Shown: one piece after another, positions 2,581 through 14,691 of the stretch
How the letters are laid out: each line of letters starts with the position of its first letter
Numbering within the stretch: position 1 is the first letter of the stretch
Source of the DNA: Streptomyces coryli
GTDB lineage: Bacteria > Actinomycetota > Actinomycetes > Streptomycetales > Streptomycetaceae
NCBI RefSeq assembly: GCF_011044975.1
Contig: NZ_JAAKZV010000033.1
Coordinates: 1-48,125, forward strand
Reading direction: 5' to 3'
DNA length: 48,125 bases
The notes under the pieces: generated by a model
What the model saw: only the letters and a program-made list of their open reading frames with translations
What the model was told of the DNA's origin: nothing
Databases searched by the model: none
Position numbers and translations under genes: made by a program

Positions 2581-2612
2581 GGCGGTGTCGCGGTCAGCAC
2601 AGCGACACCGCC
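2581..2612. terminator. Strong hairpin between convergent genes
   Basis: GGCGGTGTCGC (2581-2591) pairs perfectly over 11 bp with GCGACACCGCC (2602-2612) around a 10-base loop. It follows the secreted-protein stop at 2550 by 31 bases and overlaps the last codons and stop of the opposing SAF-domain gene. It probably terminates rightward transcription and protects the 3' end of the leftward mRNA. Confidence 0.65.
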
Positions 2613-3259
2613 AGCCGTCCCGAGGCCGCCGCGCCGGCCAGCGCCGCGGCGGTCGGGCGCGGCACGGAGAGGACCACCAGAGCGCCCGCCTCGGCGGTCA
2701 GATCGGGTCCGGTGCCGGACGCCGCCCCGTCTCCTCGCGGGACTTGGGCGACCCGGGCCGCCCGCGCCACCACCTTCGCCGCCCTGTCCCCCGCGGCGCC
2801 GCCGCCCGCCGCCACCACATCCACCCGGTCTCCCGGGCGCAGCAGCCGCACCGACGCCGCGTCCGCGATCCGTACCGGGGCCGCGACCAACGCATGCCCG
2901 GCCCGGGCCCCGGGCTTCGGATGCGGCGCCGCCGTCGCCTGCCCCGCGGGCTCCGCCGCCGTCAGCCGGGCGTCACCGCCCCGCGGCGCGGCCGCCGCCA
3001 GCGCCGCCGCCGAAATCGCCAGCCCGGCCGCCACGACACGCCGCCGTCGCCGCACAGCCCGCCGCAGCCGATGCCGCCCGCCCCCGGCCCGTAACGGCGC
3101 GAAGTCGGGCACCACACAGCCGGGAGGGACAGGGGAGTGTCTGCCTGTAGGGCCGGGGAGCACGACCTCGGCCGAGGGGAGAGACGGACCCTCGGCCGAG
3201 GGGTGCGGGGAGCGAGGGGAGTGAGAGGGAACGGAACTACCCGGCGCCATACGGGACAT
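2594..3259 (-). CDS. SAF-domain protein (CpaB/RcpC-like), membrane-anchored
   Basis: The protein has a Pro/Ser-rich cytoplasmic N-terminus, a basic stretch (RLRRAVRRRRR), one membrane anchor (VVAAGLAISAAALAAAA) and an extracytoplasmic region. That region contains an SAF fold signature (APVRIADAASVRLLRPGDRVDVVAA), as in the Flp-pilus protein CpaB/RcpC. No other pilus genes are nearby, so a pilus role is not supported here; SAF domains also occur as sugar- or peptidoglycan-binding modules. I prefer the ATG at 3259 because AGGTGG lies eight bases upstream. The frame is open to a GTG at 3304, which would add 15 residues. The stop is embedded in the 2581-2612 hairpin. Confidence 0.75.
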   Translation of the reverse strand: MSRMAPGSSVPSHSPRSPHPSAEGPSLPSAEVVLPGPTGRHSPVPPGCVVPDFAPLRAGGGRHRLRRAVRRRRRVVAAGLAISAAALAAAAPRGGDARLTAAEPAGQATAAPHPKPGARAGHALVAAPVRIADAASVRLLRPGDRVDVVAAGGGAAGDRAAKVVARAARVAQVPRGDGAASGTGPDLTAEAGALVVLSVPRPTAAALAGAAASGRLAVSLC

Positions 3260-3387
3260 GACCATCGCCACCTGATGCGAGTCGCTTGCGGTTCGTAACG
3301 CCACTCACGATCCCGCTCGCCGAAGGCCCTCGCACCACCCTGTGGACTACTCCCCAGTTGTGGAAAAGTCGCGCGCCGGCCCCACCC

Positions 3388-4301: not shown

Positions 4302-4670
4302 TCAGGCGGCCGAGCTGCTGCTCGACGAGGACCCGGAGCCGGAGCTCGAGCCCGAAGAGGAGGAAGACGAAGAGGACGAAGACGAGGACGACGACGAGCC
4401 GTTCTTGTCCGACGACTTCGACTCACTCGACTTCGAATCCGACGACTTCGACTCACCGGACTTCGCCGTCGCCGGGCTGGAGCTCGACGAACCGCCCCGG
4501 CTGTCCGTCCGGTAGAACCCGGAGCCCTTGAAGACGACACCGACCGCCGAGAACACCTTCCGCAGACGGCCACCGCAGTTCGGGCACTCCGTCAGCGCGT
4601 CGTCGGTGAACTTCTGCACCGCCTCGAGGCCCTCGCCGCATTCGGTGCACTGGTACTGGTAGGTCGGCAC
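4302..4670 (-). CDS. FmdB-family zinc-ribbon protein with Ser-rich tail
   Basis: The first 60 residues form a single zinc ribbon: MPTYQYQCTECGEGLEAVQK, then ECPNCGGRLRKVFS, giving a Cys-X2-Cys ... Cys-X2-Cys site, followed by VFKGSGFYRTDSRG. This is the FmdB (putative regulatory protein) family, named from a formamidase gene cluster; its molecular role is poorly known. The last 60 residues are almost pure Ser, Lys, Asp and Gly and are likely disordered. The start is GTG at 4670 with AGGAGG nine bases upstream. A CIRCE-like inverted repeat lies directly upstream of that ribosome-binding site, suggesting HrcA heat-shock control. Confidence 0.9.
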   Translation of the reverse strand: MPTYQYQCTECGEGLEAVQKFTDDALTECPNCGGRLRKVFSAVGVVFKGSGFYRTDSRGGSSSSSPATAKSGESKSSDSKSSESKSSDKNGSSSSSSSSSSSSSSSGSSSGSGSSSSSSSAA

Positions 4671-4683
4671 TTTTCGTATCCTC

Positions 4684-4710
4684 CTGGCACTCTCACCTAT
4701 GGAGTGCTAA
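4684..4710 (-). promoter_or_regulatory. CIRCE-like element (HrcA operator) in fmdB leader
   Basis: On the coding strand of fmdB the sequence reads TTAGCACTC, nine bases (CATAGGTGA), then GAGTGCCAG. The CIRCE consensus is TTAGCACTC-N9-GAGTGCTAA: the left half matches 9/9, the right half 7/9, and the spacer is exactly nine. It lies 14-40 bases before the GTG start and abuts the AGGAGG ribosome-binding site, the usual CIRCE position in groE leaders. HrcA itself is not in the window. Confidence 0.75.
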
Positions 4711-4741
4711 CGACGCTCTATCTTGCAGCATTCCAGCCGTG

Positions 4742-6064
4742 TCAGTCCACCGCGACGGGGCTCTCGTGACGCGCCCCACGCGCGGCGATACGCCCTGTCA
4801 CCGGAGGAGCAGGCGGCGCAGGCGGCTCCAAACGCCGCCGCAGCACCACCAGCACCACGCACGCCAGCGCCGTACCGCCGAGCGGCACCAGGAAGCCGGC
4901 CCGCGCCCCGCCCGCGTCCGCCAGCTGCCCGGCCGCCGACGACGCCAGCGCCTGGCCGAGCGCGACCGCGCCGGTCAGCCACGTGTAGGCCTCGGTCCGC
5001 GCACCCGCCGGGACCAGCGAGTCCACCAGCGTGAACCCGGTGATCATCGCGGGCGCGATGCAGATGCCGACCAGCAGCCCGAGCCCGCCCTGCAGCCAGG
5101 CGTGCGGCGACGAGGCGCCGATCCAGAGCGGCACCGTGGCCGCCACCAGCACCGGATACGCCACCAGCAGCCGCCGGTCCGCGGGCCGCCGCCAGTGCAT
5201 CAGGCCGACGACCAGACCGGCGAGCATGTTGCCCGCCGCGAAGACGCCGTAGAGGACGCCGTTCAGCCCGGGATTGCCGATCTCCTCGCTGAAGGCGGTC
5301 AGCGATACCTGCATGCCGCCGAAGACCATGCCGATGCCCAGGAAGGCGACCGCCAGCGCCCGCACCCCGGTGATCCGCAGCGCCGATCCGCCAGAGCCGC
5401 CTGCGGCCCCCGAAGCGCCCGCGATACGCACCGACACCTGCGGCTGCGTACGCCGCTGGGCCGCGAAGAGCAGCCCGCCGGTCACGGTCAGCACCGCCTC
5501 GGCGACCAGCCCGGCCGCCGGGTGCACCCCGGTGCACAGCGCCGCGGCCAGCACCGGCCCGACCACGAAGGTGAACTCGTCCGTCACCGACTCGAAAGCC
5601 GCCGCCGTGTGCTGCAGCGGCGACCGCGGGTCGAGCCGCGCCGCCCACCGGGCGCGCACCATCGGCCCGATCTGCGGCACCGACGCACCGGCGAGCACGG
5701 CGGCGAGCAGCAGCGCCCACAGGGGCGCGCCGGACAGCGCCAGCACGATCAGCAGCGATACGGCCGCCGCGTGCACCAGCACCGCGGGCACCAGCACGGC
5801 GCGCTGCCCGTACCGGTCGGCGAGCTTGCCGCACAGCGGGGCGATCAGCGCGACCGCCAGGCCGGCCGCGGCCGCGACGATGCCGGCCGTGCCGTACGAG
5901 CCGGAGGTGTGCTCGACGAGCAGCACGATGCCGATCGTCAGCATCGCGAAGGGCTGCCGGGCCAGGAAGCCCGGGATCAGAAATGTCCAGGCCCTGGGCG
6001 TGCGCAGCAGCTGTGCGTAGCCGGGCCTGCGAGTGGTTTCCGAAGAGAGAGCCGTGGGCGCCAC
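4742..6064 (-). CDS. MFS transporter (12-TM exporter type)
   Basis: This is an integral membrane protein of about 440 residues with roughly twelve hydrophobic segments. The first is at LIPGFLARQPFAMLTIGIVL, followed by the MFS motif-A-like loop GKLADRYGQRAVL. The repeat of small hydrophobic helices and the DNA-helix-like loop place it in the major facilitator superfamily; the substrate cannot be told. I chose the GTG at 6064 because AAGGA lies seven bases upstream. The frame is open to an ATG at 6121. The promoter region holds a 13-bp-period direct repeat (6214-6237), a likely regulator site. No dedicated regulator gene lies beside it. Confidence 0.86.
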   Translation of the reverse strand: MAPTALSSETTRRPGYAQLLRTPRAWTFLIPGFLARQPFAMLTIGIVLLVEHTSGSYGTAGIVAAAAGLAVALIAPLCGKLADRYGQRAVLVPAVLVHAAAVSLLIVLALSGAPLWALLLAAVLAGASVPQIGPMVRARWAARLDPRSPLQHTAAAFESVTDEFTFVVGPVLAAALCTGVHPAAGLVAEAVLTVTGGLLFAAQRRTQPQVSVRIAGASGAAGGSGGSALRITGVRALAVAFLGIGMVFGGMQVSLTAFSEEIGNPGLNGVLYGVFAAGNMLAGLVVGLMHWRRPADRRLLVAYPVLVAATVPLWIGASSPHAWLQGGLGLLVGICIAPAMITGFTLVDSLVPAGARTEAYTWLTGAVALGQALASSAAGQLADAGGARAGFLVPLGGTALACVVLVVLRRRLEPPAPPAPPVTGRIAARGARHESPVAVD

Positions 6065-6213
6065 GGCCTCGTCCTTTCTGCCGCCCGAGGACGCGGGCCC
6101 GCTCCATGGGATCGGAGCCAAAGGGGGCGCGCCGAGAGCTGTCCACCACGGGGCGGGGCCGGGACGGCCCAGATCTGGCCCCGCGAGCTCTGCGTCAGGC
6201 AGGTTTCGGGTAC

Positions 6214-10742: not shown

Positions 10743-11819
10743 ATGCCCGCCCCCGACCGGCTCCTGTACGCCCGCCTGATACCGCTGCTGCTGTGCCTCG
10801 CGGCGCTCGCCGGCGGGGGTTACGTCGCCGTGGCCGGTGTCGGCCCGGAGGAGCGGGAGGCGCGGGCGTGGGAGGCCGCCGAGGCGTGTCCGGCGATGTC
10901 CGGGACGCCGGACATCGGCCGGGACTGCAGGACCACCGTGCGTGGCGTGGTCGAGGAGACCCACGCGGAGCGGCCCAAGCGCCGCGGCCACGCCCCGAAC
11001 TGGATCGCCTTCCGTAACGACAAGCCGGCGCCGAAGGTGAACGTCGCCGACTTCGACACCGCCGCCGAGTACGGCCCCGGCGACCGCGTCGAGCTGACCT
11101 GGTGGCGCGGGCGGCTGATGACGGTCTCGGGGGAGGGCCGCACCTTCGACCAGAACGTCCCGGCCCCGCGGGCGCTGGCGGTGCTGGTCACCGTCGCCGT
11201 GCCGATCGCCGCCGGCGGGCTCGTCCTCTGGCTGGGCCGCCGCCGGCGCGCCGGACAGTCCGTCGCCCCCGGCGAGCGCGGCGACGCCGGCGGCAAGGCC
11301 TTCCTCGTGCCCATCCTCGCCACCGCGGCCTGGACGATCCTGCTCGCGGCGCTACGGCCCGGGGTGGGCGTCGCCCAAGGGGTGGCCCTCGCCTGCGGAC
11401 TCGGGACACTGGCGCTCACGGCGATCGCCTGGCGCCAGACCGGCTCGCGCGGCCGGCCCGAGGAGCGGGTGTTGCCCGCCGGCGAGGACACCTACGTGCC
11501 CGCGATGATCCTCGGCCGGGTGCCGTACGAAGGGCACTTCGGCGGCAGCTGGATCGTCGTCCGCGACGACTCCATGGCCCTGGTGCCCAGCAAGTCCCGC
11601 TTCGGCGCCAAGGAGATCCCGGTGCGCCGGCTCCGGGTGCAGCACGTCCGCCGCCCCCGCGCCGAGGAGGAGGGCGTCCCGTCGTCCTGGCACGTCGCCG
11701 AACTCCTCGACGGCGATACCCCCGTACGGCTCACCGCCGCGCCGGACGACCTCGCGGCGCTGCTGGACCGGATCAGGTCGGTCGCGCTTCCGGAAAGCGG
11801 TGCAGCGCCGACGGCGTGA
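10743..11819 (+). CDS. Multi-pass membrane protein of unknown function
   Basis: The 358-residue protein starts with a membrane segment (LIPLLLCLAALAGGGYVAVA), followed by an outside domain of about 110 residues with two Cys (EACPAMSG and GRDCRTTV). Further hydrophobic segments are at about 140-160 (ALAVLVTVAVPIAAGGLVLW), 182-200 and 207-223. A cytoplasmic C-terminal domain of about 130 residues follows, with SWIVVRDDSMALVPSKSRFG. I do not recognise a family. It lies 7 bp after the acylase gene and is almost certainly co-transcribed, so it may be an accessory or sensor for that enzyme. Its 3' end overlaps the convergent cyclo-ligase gene by 47 bp. Confidence 0.85.
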   Translation: MPAPDRLLYARLIPLLLCLAALAGGGYVAVAGVGPEEREARAWEAAEACPAMSGTPDIGRDCRTTVRGVVEETHAERPKRRGHAPNWIAFRNDKPAPKVNVADFDTAAEYGPGDRVELTWWRGRLMTVSGEGRTFDQNVPAPRALAVLVTVAVPIAAGGLVLWLGRRRRAGQSVAPGERGDAGGKAFLVPILATAAWTILLAALRPGVGVAQGVALACGLGTLALTAIAWRQTGSRGRPEERVLPAGEDTYVPAMILGRVPYEGHFGGSWIVVRDDSMALVPSKSRFGAKEIPVRRLRVQHVRRPRAEEEGVPSSWHVAELLDGDTPVRLTAAPDDLAALLDRIRSVALPESGAAPTA

Positions 11820-12381
11820 CCGCCGCCCGTACGGACCGGTCGTGCGGCTCCGCCGGCACGTGCTCGACGACCTCGTCGTCGTACAGCACCACCACCAGCG
11901 CCGGATCGAAGCCACCGCCCGCGAGCCGCGCCAGCACCCGGTCGTACGAGCCCCCGCCGCGCCCGAGCCGCAGCCCGCGGCGGTCCACCGCGAGACCCGG
12001 CAGCAGCACCACGTCCGCTTCCGTCACGGCGCCGACGCCGAGCGCCGCGGCCGACGGCTCGAGCAGGCCGCGGCGGGCCCGTACCAGCGAATCGGCGCCC
12101 TCATAGGCGGCCCAGTCGAGGTCGTTGTCGGGCCGGAGCACCGGCAGCAGGACCCGGGTGCCGCGGTCGCGCAGCGTGTCGATGAGCTCCCGGGTCGACG
12201 GCTCGCGGCCCACCGACACGTACGCCGCCACCGTCCGCGCCGCGGCGAGTTCGGGCAGCCCGACCGCGCGCCGGGCGATCGCGGCGCCGGCCACCCGCAG
12301 GTCATCCGGCGGCAACCCGGCCCTCACAGCGAGGACGCGCTCGCGCAACGCCGCCTTCGTAACCTGACCCGAATTACTCAC
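11773..12381 (-). CDS. 5-formyltetrahydrofolate cyclo-ligase
   Basis: This enzyme converts 5-formyl-THF to 5,10-methenyl-THF with ATP in one-carbon metabolism. Family features in the 202-residue product are the N-terminal basic helix KAALRERVLAVRAG, central VSVGREPSTRELIDTLRDRG, and the ATP/phosphate motif LGRGGGSYDRVLARL at residues 139-153, then a late LYDDEVVEHVPAEPHD. The start is taken as GTG at 12381 (SNSGQVTKAAL) because homology begins just after it; the frame remains open further upstream but that part is antisense to galU. It diverges from galU across 49 bp. Confidence 0.93.
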   Translation of the reverse strand: MSNSGQVTKAALRERVLAVRAGLPPDDLRVAGAAIARRAVGLPELAAARTVAAYVSVGREPSTRELIDTLRDRGTRVLLPVLRPDNDLDWAAYEGADSLVRARRGLLEPSAAALGVGAVTEADVVLLPGLAVDRRGLRLGRGGGSYDRVLARLAGGGFDPALVVVLYDDEVVEHVPAEPHDRSVRAAVTPSALHRFPEARPT

Positions 12382-12430
12382 CGCCGTAAACCCCAAACTT
12401 TCCGACACCTCTGTCGATATGGTGCTCAAT

Positions 12431-13339
12431 ATGACCTCACCCCGCCCTCGCATCACCAAGGCTGTCATCCCGGCAGCCGGCCTCGGCACCCGGTTCCTTC
12501 CCGCCACCAAGGCGACGCCGAAGGAAATGCTGCCGGTCGTGGACAAGCCCGCGATCCAGTACGTCGTGGAGGAGGCCGTCAGCGCGGGGCTGCCCGACGT
12601 GCTGATGGTCACCGGCCGCAACAAGCGCCCGCTCGAAGACCACTTCGACCGCAACTACGAGCTCGAAGAGGCGCTGCGCCGCAAGGGTGACGAGTCGCGG
12701 CTGGCGAAGGTGGAGGAGTCGAGCGAGCTCGCCAACATCCACTACGTCCGCCAGGGCGACCCCAAGGGCCTCGGCCACGCCATCGCCATGGCCGAACCGC
12801 ACGTCGGCGACCAGCCCTTCGCGGTCCTCCTCGGCGACGACCTGATCGACCCGCGCGACCCGCTGCTGAAGAGCATGATCGACGTCCAGCGGCGGCACGG
12901 CGGCAGCGTGATCGGCCTGATGGAGGTCGACCCGTCCCAGATCCACCTCTACGGCTGCGCGGCCGTGGAGAACAACGGCGACAGCGACTGCGTCCGCATC
13001 ACAGGCCTGGTCGAGAAGCCGACCGCCGCCGACGCGCCCAGCAACCTCGCCATCATCGGCCGGTACGTCCTCGCCCCCGGCGTCTTCGACGTGTTGCGCC
13101 GTACGCCCCCGGGCCGCGGCGGCGAAATCCAGATCACCGACGCGCTGCAGACCCTCGCCGCCGACGAGTCCATCGACGGCCCGGTGCACGGCGTGGTCTT
13201 CAAGGGCCGCCGCTACGACACCGGCGACCGCGCCGACTACCTCCGCGCGATTGTCAGACTCGCATGCGAACGTGATGACCTGGGTCCTGAATTCAGTACC
13301 TGGCTGCGGAAGTATGTTGCGGAGGAGCTGGGCAGTTGA
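12431..13339 (+). CDS. galU: UTP--glucose-1-phosphate uridylyltransferase
   Basis: GalU makes UDP-glucose from UTP and glucose-1-phosphate for cell-wall polymers, trehalose and glycogen-like polysaccharides. The nucleotide-binding signature is at the N-terminus (AVIPAAGLGTRFLPATKATP, KEMLPVVDKPAIQYVVEEAV), followed by FAVLLGDDLID (metal-binding Asp pair) and LVEKPTAADAPSNLAIIGRY. The 302-residue length is typical. I start at ATG 12431 (MTSPRPRITK). An in-frame ATG at 12419 adds four residues, and neither has a convincing ribosome-binding site, so the message may be leaderless or nearly so. The stop overlaps the TTG start of the next gene (TTGA), showing translational coupling. Confidence 0.96.
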   Translation: MTSPRPRITKAVIPAAGLGTRFLPATKATPKEMLPVVDKPAIQYVVEEAVSAGLPDVLMVTGRNKRPLEDHFDRNYELEEALRRKGDESRLAKVEESSELANIHYVRQGDPKGLGHAIAMAEPHVGDQPFAVLLGDDLIDPRDPLLKSMIDVQRRHGGSVIGLMEVDPSQIHLYGCAAVENNGDSDCVRITGLVEKPTAADAPSNLAIIGRYVLAPGVFDVLRRTPPGRGGEIQITDALQTLAADESIDGPVHGVVFKGRRYDTGDRADYLRAIVRLACERDDLGPEFSTWLRKYVAEELGS

Positions 13340-14691
13340 GTACGACGATGGAGAAGCCGGTGGCCACGGAAGAGAAGAGCGCGGAGCGGGCCGTCTGGTC
13401 CGTGGACGAGCATCTCGACGACATCCTCCGGCAGCTCCGTCCCCTGGAGCCGCTGGAGCTGCAGCTCCTCGAGGCCCAGGGCTGCGTCCTGGTCGAGGAC
13501 GTCAAGGTCCCGGTCTCGCTGCCGCCTTTCGACAACAGCTCGATGGACGGTTACGCGGTCCGCGTCGCCGATGTCGAGAGCGCCGGTGCGGAATACCCCA
13601 TCGTGCTCACGGTCATCGGCGACGTCGCGGCGGGCAGCGGCGAGCTGCCCACCGTCGGCCCCGGGCAGGCCGCCCGGATCATGACCGGTGCGCCGCTGCC
13701 CCCTGGCGCCGACGCCGTGGTGCCGGTGGAGTGGACCGACGGCGGCCTCGGCGAGGGCCCGGTCGAGGGCATGACGGCGGCCAGCGCCGCGCCCGAGGGC
13801 GCGACCGGCGAGGTCGCGGTGCACCGGCCGGCCGAGGAGGGCCAGTATGTGCGCCGCCGGGGCAGCGATGTCACCGCCGGCGACCTTGCGCTGGAGGCGG
13901 GCACCGTCCTCGGCCCGGCGCAGATCTCCCTGCTGGCCGCCATCGGCCTCGGCACGGTCACGGTCCGGCCCCGCCCCCGCGTCGTGGTGCTCTCCACCGG
14001 CAGCGAGCTGGTCCCGCCCGGCGAGCCGCTCGGCCCCGGCCAGATCCACGACTCCAACAGCTATGCGCTGACCACCGCCGCCATCGCCGCGGGCGCCATC
14101 GCCTACCGGGTCGGCGCCGTCGCCGACGACGCCGAGACGCTGCGCGCCACGATCGAGGACCAGCTGATCCGCGCCGACGCGGTGGTCACCAGCGGCGGCG
14201 TCAGCGTCGGCGCGTACGACGTGGTCAAGGAGGCGCTCTCCGACCTGGGTTCGGATGGCGCGGGCGGCGTGGAGTTCCGCAAGCTCGCCATGCAGCCCGG
14301 CAAGCCGCAGGGCTTCGGCCGCATCGGCGACGACCGCACCCCGCTGCTCGCCCTGCCCGGCAATCCGGTCAGCGCGTATGTCTCCTTCGAGCTGTTCGTA
14401 CGCCCCGTGATCCGCACCCTGATGGGCCTGGAGCCGGTCCGCCGCGAGCCGCGCCGGGCGCGGATCGTCGCCAAGGAGGCGCTGAGTTCGCCGGACGGCA
14501 AGCGCCAGTTCCTCCGCGGACGGTACGAGCCCCCGGCGAAGGGGAAGACGGTCGGCAAGGTGACCCCGGTCGGCGGCGCCGGATCGCATCTGGTGGCGGC
14601 GCTGGCCCAGGCCAATGCGCTGATGGTGATCCCGGAGGGCACGACATCGGTCGCGCCGGGCGCGACACTGGACGTACTCGTACTCGACTGA
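13336..14691 (+). CDS. glp: Gephyrin-like molybdotransferase (Glp / MoeA family)
   Basis: Domains of the MoeA family occur in order: MoeA N-terminal region (about residues 25-190, with PPFDNSSMDGYAVRVADVES and GDVAAGSGELPTVGPGQAAR), the MoCF-binding domain (about 215-360, VVVLSTGSELVPPG, DSNSYALTTAAIAAGA, TSGGVSVGAYDVVKEAL, ALPGNPVSAYVSFELFVRP) and the C-terminal domain (about 380-451). MoeA inserts molybdate into molybdopterin. In actinobacteria one paralogue, Glp, instead works in cell division with its receptor GlpR/SepX. The matching membrane gene lies four genes downstream (16595), which favours Glp. The TTG start at 13336 overlaps the galU stop. Catalytic activity is plausible but not shown. 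Confidence 0.9.
   Translation: MSTTMEKPVATEEKSAERAVWSVDEHLDDILRQLRPLEPLELQLLEAQGCVLVEDVKVPVSLPPFDNSSMDGYAVRVADVESAGAEYPIVLTVIGDVAAGSGELPTVGPGQAARIMTGAPLPPGADAVVPVEWTDGGLGEGPVEGMTAASAAPEGATGEVAVHRPAEEGQYVRRRGSDVTAGDLALEAGTVLGPAQISLLAAIGLGTVTVRPRPRVVVLSTGSELVPPGEPLGPGQIHDSNSYALTTAAIAAGAIAYRVGAVADDAETLRATIEDQLIRADAVVTSGGVSVGAYDVVKEALSDLGSDGAGGVEFRKLAMQPGKPQGFGRIGDDRTPLLALPGNPVSAYVSFELFVRPVIRTLMGLEPVRREPRRARIVAKEALSSPDGKRQFLRGRYEPPAKGKTVGKVTPVGGAGSHLVAALAQANALMVIPEGTTSVAPGATLDVLVLD

Follow-up and report, generated by a model that had tools for sequence, protein, structure and literature searches.

Introduction

The question raised by this locus is what controls a small zinc-ribbon gene of the FmdB type in Streptomyces, and what its product may do in the cell. 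By the window we mean the whole stretch of DNA analysed here, 48,125 nucleotides long. Its first-pass annotation placed a CIRCE-like inverted repeat ahead of the gene, proposed HrcA as the regulator, and considered that this would tie a family of proteins having no clear function to chaperone biology. For the present branch of the family such a view of the function is outdated, and the tie itself was already published in 2020 for Mycobacterium tuberculosis, so that the core link, an FmdB zinc ribbon under HrcA with a role in chaperone biology, is known from that organism (PMC7448276).

According to the excerpts of that publication on which we draw, Rv0991c was named Ruc and is a zinc-binding, disordered protein which becomes a chaperone on oxidation and aids refolding by DnaKJE; the oxidation-dependent prevention of aggregation and delivery to DnaK were both reported, and Ruc is accordingly regarded as a redox-regulated chaperone (PMC7448276). 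The same excerpts describe direct repression of ruc by HrcA and its induction by SigH on heat, with overlapping binding sites for the two, and they state that in an hrcA mutant Ruc is already abundant at 37 degrees (PMC7448276), so that activation of SigH by heat is no absolute requirement in that species. The portion of PMC4803200 considered here tabulates SigH-dependent expression and gives Rv0991c a value of 40.3 +/- 12.2.

The gene, its product and its neighbourhood

The ruc/fmdB-type gene occupies positions 4302-4670 of the window on the minus strand, reading from a GTG start at 4670 to 4302, and encodes 122 amino acids. Its product is an FmdB-type zinc ribbon by both Pfam PF09723 (E 8.1e-16) and NCBIfam TIGR02605 (E 4.3e-21), with the N-terminal cysteines Cys8, Cys11, Cys29 and Cys32 arranged as CxxC-N17-CxxC. 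Beyond the ribbon lies a hydrophilic tail, variable among relatives, in which serine makes up 42 of the 68 residues of the stretch 55-122. The M. tuberculosis protein, as described in the excerpts of its report, belongs to the same zinc-ribbon family, with cysteines at 8, 11, 29 and 32, and its tail is hydrophilic too; in Streptomyces the tail is mostly serine and longer than the 7-61 residues given there.

Aligned over approximately the first 100 codons each, the Streptomyces protein is 51 and 64% identical to those of two Mycobacterium relatives (loci L055 and L059). Because the CxxC-N17-CxxC motif stands at the same residue numbers, the identity is of this order and the gene order is shared, the window gene is, as judged from sequence, the ruc orthologue and the counterpart of Rv0991c, an assignment based on the published motif and on these other Mycobacterium loci rather than on the M. 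tuberculosis sequence.

The shared order runs mscL, a SAF/RcpC-type gene, ruc, the 5-formyltetrahydrofolate cyclo-ligase gene, galU and moeA, and is common to the window and to Mycobacterium celatum (L055). In the window mscL lies at 1446-1994 on the minus strand (Pfam MscL, E 3e-37) and is near ruc in L055 as well, in the opposite orientation; an RcpC/CpaB-type gene follows at 2594-3304 on the minus strand (PF16976, E 2.2e-09), at whose counterpart position L055 has a SAF-domain gene (PF08666, E 3.1e-09). The cyclo-ligase gene, at 11773-12654 on the minus strand (PF01812, E 3.9e-44), adjoins ruc in L055, and the galU-type nucleotidyl transferase and moeA genes, at 12419-14691 on the plus strand (PF00483 and MoeA domains), keep the order of that genome. 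The two loci differ in the inversion of mscL and in extra genes that separate the common neighbours in the window (MTAP and a block of MFS, antiporter and acylase genes). Immediately upstream of ruc and co-directional with it is the MFS transporter gene at 4742-6121 on the minus strand (TIGR00900, E 6.8e-18, which is below the model cut-off), and the gap of 71 nt between its stop and ruc holds the promoter and operator discussed below. Beside mscL, an open reading frame at 933-1406 on the plus strand has a repetitive translation rich in Lys, Ala and Pro.

A CIRCE-type operator joined to the ribosome-binding site

The putative HrcA operator of CIRCE type takes positions 4684-4710 on the minus strand, with the left arm at 4710-4702, a spacer of 9 nt and the right arm at 4692-4684. 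Read as TTAGCACTC-N9-GAGTGCCAG, it agrees with the consensus TTAGCACTC-N9-GAGTGCTAA at 16 of 18 arm positions, with two mismatches and exactly the expected 9-nt spacing. It is the sole CIRCE-like match at three or fewer mismatches in all 48,125 bases, and none of 100 shuffles of the window yielded another at this threshold, which bears out the match and spacing first noticed ahead of the fmdB gene. The right arm ends in AG, and with these two bases the Shine-Dalgarno sequence AGGAGG (4680-4685, minus strand) begins. The first-pass annotation had described this contact with the ribosome-binding site as resembling groE leaders; the contact itself holds at ruc, and the resemblance does not hold where the start codon of a Streptomyces groE gene can be read. 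In Streptomyces leaders the right arm ends in CAG and not in TAA, perhaps because it is fused to the Shine-Dalgarno sequence; both the fusion and the CAG end set the Streptomyces operator apart from that of M. tuberculosis ruc.

Conservation of the operator

The leaders of 80 related actinobacterial loci were compared, being the best-scoring 80 of 160 confirmed relatives among the pattern matches listed for species-representative genomes; all bear actinobacterial titles, and close kin are over-represented among them. A CIRCE with up to four mismatches is present within 200 nt upstream in 66 of the 80, and in none of 1973 control windows, likewise 200 nt long, from the same loci; five of these windows reach five mismatches. 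Extension to 300 nt adds one locus, L077, and gives 67 of 80, distributed in our grouping as 27/27 in Streptomycetaceae, 12/12 in mycolic-acid actinomycetes, 9/9 in Micromonosporaceae and 19/32 in the others. The MAG L074, titled Streptomycetaceae and with a genome of 1.2 Mb, was put under the others; counted with Streptomycetaceae, it would change their figures to 27/28 for CIRCE and 26/28 for the SigR element considered below. The titles of L074 and of a second MAG, L079 (Bifidobacterium breve), look doubtful at genome sizes of 1.2-1.3 Mb.

At the level of the genus, sampled as 199 genomes of the genus to which Streptomyces shenzhenensis (G002, locus L003) belongs, the exact RBS-fused pattern TTAGCACTC-N9-GAGTGCCAGNAGG was found in 196, one copy in each, and the reversed pattern in none of the 199. 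The three genomes without it gave no ruc protein match better than E 0.07, and five genomes taken as positive controls matched at E 8.6e-32 to 9.3e-36; on the simplest reading ruc is absent from these three genomes or from their assemblies. Outside Streptomyces the distance between the CIRCE and the start codon reaches 100 nt. The inverted repeat that was expected to recur in orthologous fmdB leaders is thus present both among the relatives and in the genus.

In 13 of the 80 relatives the operator was not found within 300 nt upstream. Eleven of these loci are MAGs by title, and the other two belong to Ornithinimicrobium and Brachybacterium. We considered loss of HrcA as the cause and rejected it: an HrcA match was obtained in 12 of the 13 genomes, partial or split in four, therefore it is the operator and not the repressor that is missing in most of them. 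CIRCE-like sites occur elsewhere in the genome in 12 of the 13, in a search that covered the genomes of 29 of the 80 loci. Absence of the operator in 13 of 80 loci despite HrcA means that HrcA control is not universal in the family.

The HrcA regulon of Streptomyces

The presence of HrcA, SigR and groE was examined in genomes of the relatives, and HrcA is encoded in 34 of 35 of them (the genomes of 35 of the 80 loci). In eight Streptomyces genomes we counted 40 CIRCE sites with up to three mismatches, four to six in each, the reversed control giving four in total. Eight of these sites, one per genome, belong to ruc. Among the 32 others, 19, in 11 of the 12 loci examined, are ahead of GroES or GroEL; the remainder comprises two in L082, where the protein patterns gave no recognition, and 11 outside the loci examined.

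The CIRCE nearest to groES ends 97-99 nt before the start (L083, L084, L085, L087 and L088), and that nearest to groEL2 ends 126-128 nt before it (L091 and L092). Around positions 1501-1575, six of these loci (L084, L085, L087, L088, L091 and L092) have two CIRCE each, with their starts 47 nt apart at groES or 36 nt apart at groEL2. The operator sequence of the groES-groEL1 and groEL2 leaders is the same as that at ruc; they differ from it in arrangement, since most groE leaders examined have two CIRCE at a distance of roughly 100 nt or more from the start codon, and ruc has one, at the ribosome-binding site.

Two weaker CIRCE sites with three mismatches (G007:C1:965701-965727 and G008:C2:180948-180974) are located beyond an HrcA-domain match, about 350 nt out from its N-terminal side. 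They probably stand just before hrcA, as judged from position, which suggests autoregulation of that gene. Taken together, the sites point to a small predicted CIRCE regulon in Streptomyces, which would consist of groES-groEL1, groEL2, probably hrcA, and ruc.

In the portion of a 2009 paper on Streptomyces coelicolor considered here, groES/EL1 and groEL2 are named as controlled by HrcA (PMC2687793). The heat-shock text naming groE in that portion makes no mention of FmdB, an observation of little weight (PMC2687793). Module 239 of PMC3224704, as excerpted, contains groEL2 and has CIRCE-like upstream sequences, and it may contain ruc. Conservation of the leaders, HrcA in all but one of the genomes examined, and the M. 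tuberculosis orthologue, a proven HrcA target in the excerpts of its report, support the reading of the repeat as a putative HrcA operator.

A SigR-type promoter overlapping the operator

The first-pass annotation missed a SigR-type promoter that overlaps the operator. GGAAT-N18-GTT is the published SigR consensus of Streptomyces, as given in the excerpts of PMC2375139 and PMC9205884, and its single match in the window, at 4734-4709 on the minus strand, lies on the CIRCE. The predicted -35 element GGAAT of this SigR/SigH-type promoter occupies 4730-4734, in a position that is conserved, and the -10 element GTT occupies 4709-4711, the CIRCE left arm starting with two of its bases. Both the consensus of the SigR regulon, which responds to thiol-oxidative stress, and its spacing are thus exact at ruc, and unlike the consensus promoter of that regulon the ruc promoter is overlaid by a putative HrcA operator. 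By chance 0.25 matches are expected in the window, and one or more turn up in 22 of 100 shuffles, therefore the sequence match alone is weak and the position is what counts.

The exact composite of GGAAT-N18-GTT and CIRCE is present in 189 of the 199 Streptomyces genomes, and this count is the later and fairer evidence, the SigR test having been framed after the sequence had been seen. Seven further genomes have the CIRCE and lack the exact composite, three by one extra T and four by a changed -35 box. Among the related loci the composite occurs in 26/27 Streptomycetaceae and 11/12 mycolic-acid actinomycetes, with random positions giving 53 of 20,000, and of the 37 loci in these two groups that carry the element all but one, 36, have a spacing of 18. 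A sigma factor of the SigH/SigR family scored above the curated cut-off in all 13 genomes tested. At the groE operators the SigR-type element was found in none of the 19 checked, in which they differ from ruc.

The element was absent from all nine Micromonosporaceae leaders and from 29 of the 32 other loci; the remaining three have it at a shifted register. In these three (L033, L035 and L047, two of Nonomuraea and one Pseudonocardia MAG) a SigR-like -10 does not overlap the CIRCE and begins 7 nt ahead of it, the spacing again being 18 nt. The nine Micromonosporaceae leaders (L022, L028, L031, L041, L042, L046, L051, L052 and L062) show by eye a TGGACGAA motif about 27-45 nt upstream of the CIRCE, possibly a different type of promoter. 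A possible housekeeping -35 sequence, TGGACT, was also noticed by eye upstream in the leaders and was set aside, as it coincides in the window with the stop end of the MFS gene and its conservation may therefore be coding.

Would an HrcA operator without any SigR promoter explain these observations? GGAAT-N18-GTT would then be a by-product of the GTT at the CIRCE edge and of local conservation, and the gene would be transcribed by a housekeeping sigma factor and induced by heat-only de-repression. The CIRCE itself indeed supplies two of the three -10 bases, the Micromonosporaceae leaders (9/9) do with a CIRCE and no SigR element, and the -35 is changed in 4 of the 199 genus genomes and in one of the 27 Streptomycetaceae loci. 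Against it stands the pattern of conservation, which over 28 anchored Streptomycetaceae leaders, the window included, amounts to 1.74 bits per column in the -35 box, to 1.28 in the interval separating the boxes and to 0.77 from -130 to -50, a region lying inside the upstream gene in the window. The constancy of the 18-nt spacing is also at odds with a by-product, and for the orthologue in mycobacteria the excerpts of PMC7448276 and PMC4803200 establish SigH dependence. We consider an operator acting without the SigR promoter unlikely, though it is the strongest of the competitors.

A much weaker competitor is an RNA structure, in which the inverted repeat would shade the Shine-Dalgarno sequence as a thermosensor or stability element and would not be an operator. 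The right arm does have two bases in common with AGGAGG, a transcript with the whole CIRCE folds into a hairpin of eight pairs, and in both folds made most of AGGAGG is paired with downstream bases of the gene start. In the whole-CIRCE fold, though, AGGAGG is outside the CIRCE stem, and after folding a hairpin was rejected as the main mechanism. The SigR transcript, moreover, should start inside the CIRCE and be devoid of most of the left arm, the CIRCE is as far as 100 nt from the start codon outside Streptomyces, and the portion of PMC2687793 considered here names the groE genes of Streptomyces, whose leaders carry this very sequence, among the targets of HrcA; we give the hairpin very little credence. 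A chance inverted repeat is refuted by the conservation, with 66 of 80 leaders against 0 of 1973 control windows and 0 of 100 shuffles, and its probability is practically nil.

Proposed mechanism

With these competitors weighed, we propose with considerable confidence that Streptomyces ruc is under composite control, in which a putative HrcA operator overlies a SigR-type promoter at its -10 element and start region and extends into the ribosome-binding site, and that its product would be a redox chaperone. HrcA would block the SigR polymerase because the operator and the promoter have bases in common. As long as the cell is unstressed, HrcA bound to the CIRCE would keep RNA polymerase from the -10 and start region. 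The activity of HrcA depends on chaperonin, and unfolded protein would tie up the chaperonin that HrcA needs and so free the operator. Under disulphide stress SigR would be released from its anti-sigma factor RsrA, and the SigR-RNA polymerase would then use the freed promoter. With zinc held by its four cysteines the product would be inactive, and on oxidation it would bind unfolded proteins and hand them to DnaK. Binding by HrcA, induction and activity of the protein in Streptomyces are what we infer here.

In its control, too, the locus resembles M. tuberculosis ruc, with an HrcA site and an overlapping promoter of SigH type, and its gene order is that of the Mycobacterium relative L055. We suggest far more tentatively that ruc is the single Streptomyces gene in which the HrcA and SigR regulons meet and that it works as a coincidence gate, with full expression only when overload of chaperonin and an oxidised cytoplasm occur together. 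This is suggested by the position of the operator over the SigR -10 element, and we regard it as possible but rather doubtful. If the gate were true, the same condition would make the protein an active holdase, so that the control of the gene and the switch in the protein would read the same two signals. For M. tuberculosis a strict gate is argued against by the abundance of Ruc at 37 degrees on the loss of HrcA alone.

Significance

Our search of titles, opening lines of abstracts and excerpts in the open-access literature found no statement on HrcA control of ruc in Streptomyces, which is weak evidence of absence, and the SigR part of the control may already be in the SigR target lists. What is added here to the knowledge from M. 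tuberculosis is that nearly every genome of the Streptomyces sample has the composite and that the 19 groE operators checked are without the SigR part. The arrangement for control of ruc by HrcA and SigH/SigR, known from one pathogen, is kept at base-pair register across nearly all of the Streptomyces sampled, as it is in 11 of 12 loci of mycolic-acid actinomycetes. The redox chaperone is therefore open to study in a harmless and genetically tractable host, and competition between a repressor and a stress sigma factor for a single promoter can be examined in compact form on the ruc operator.
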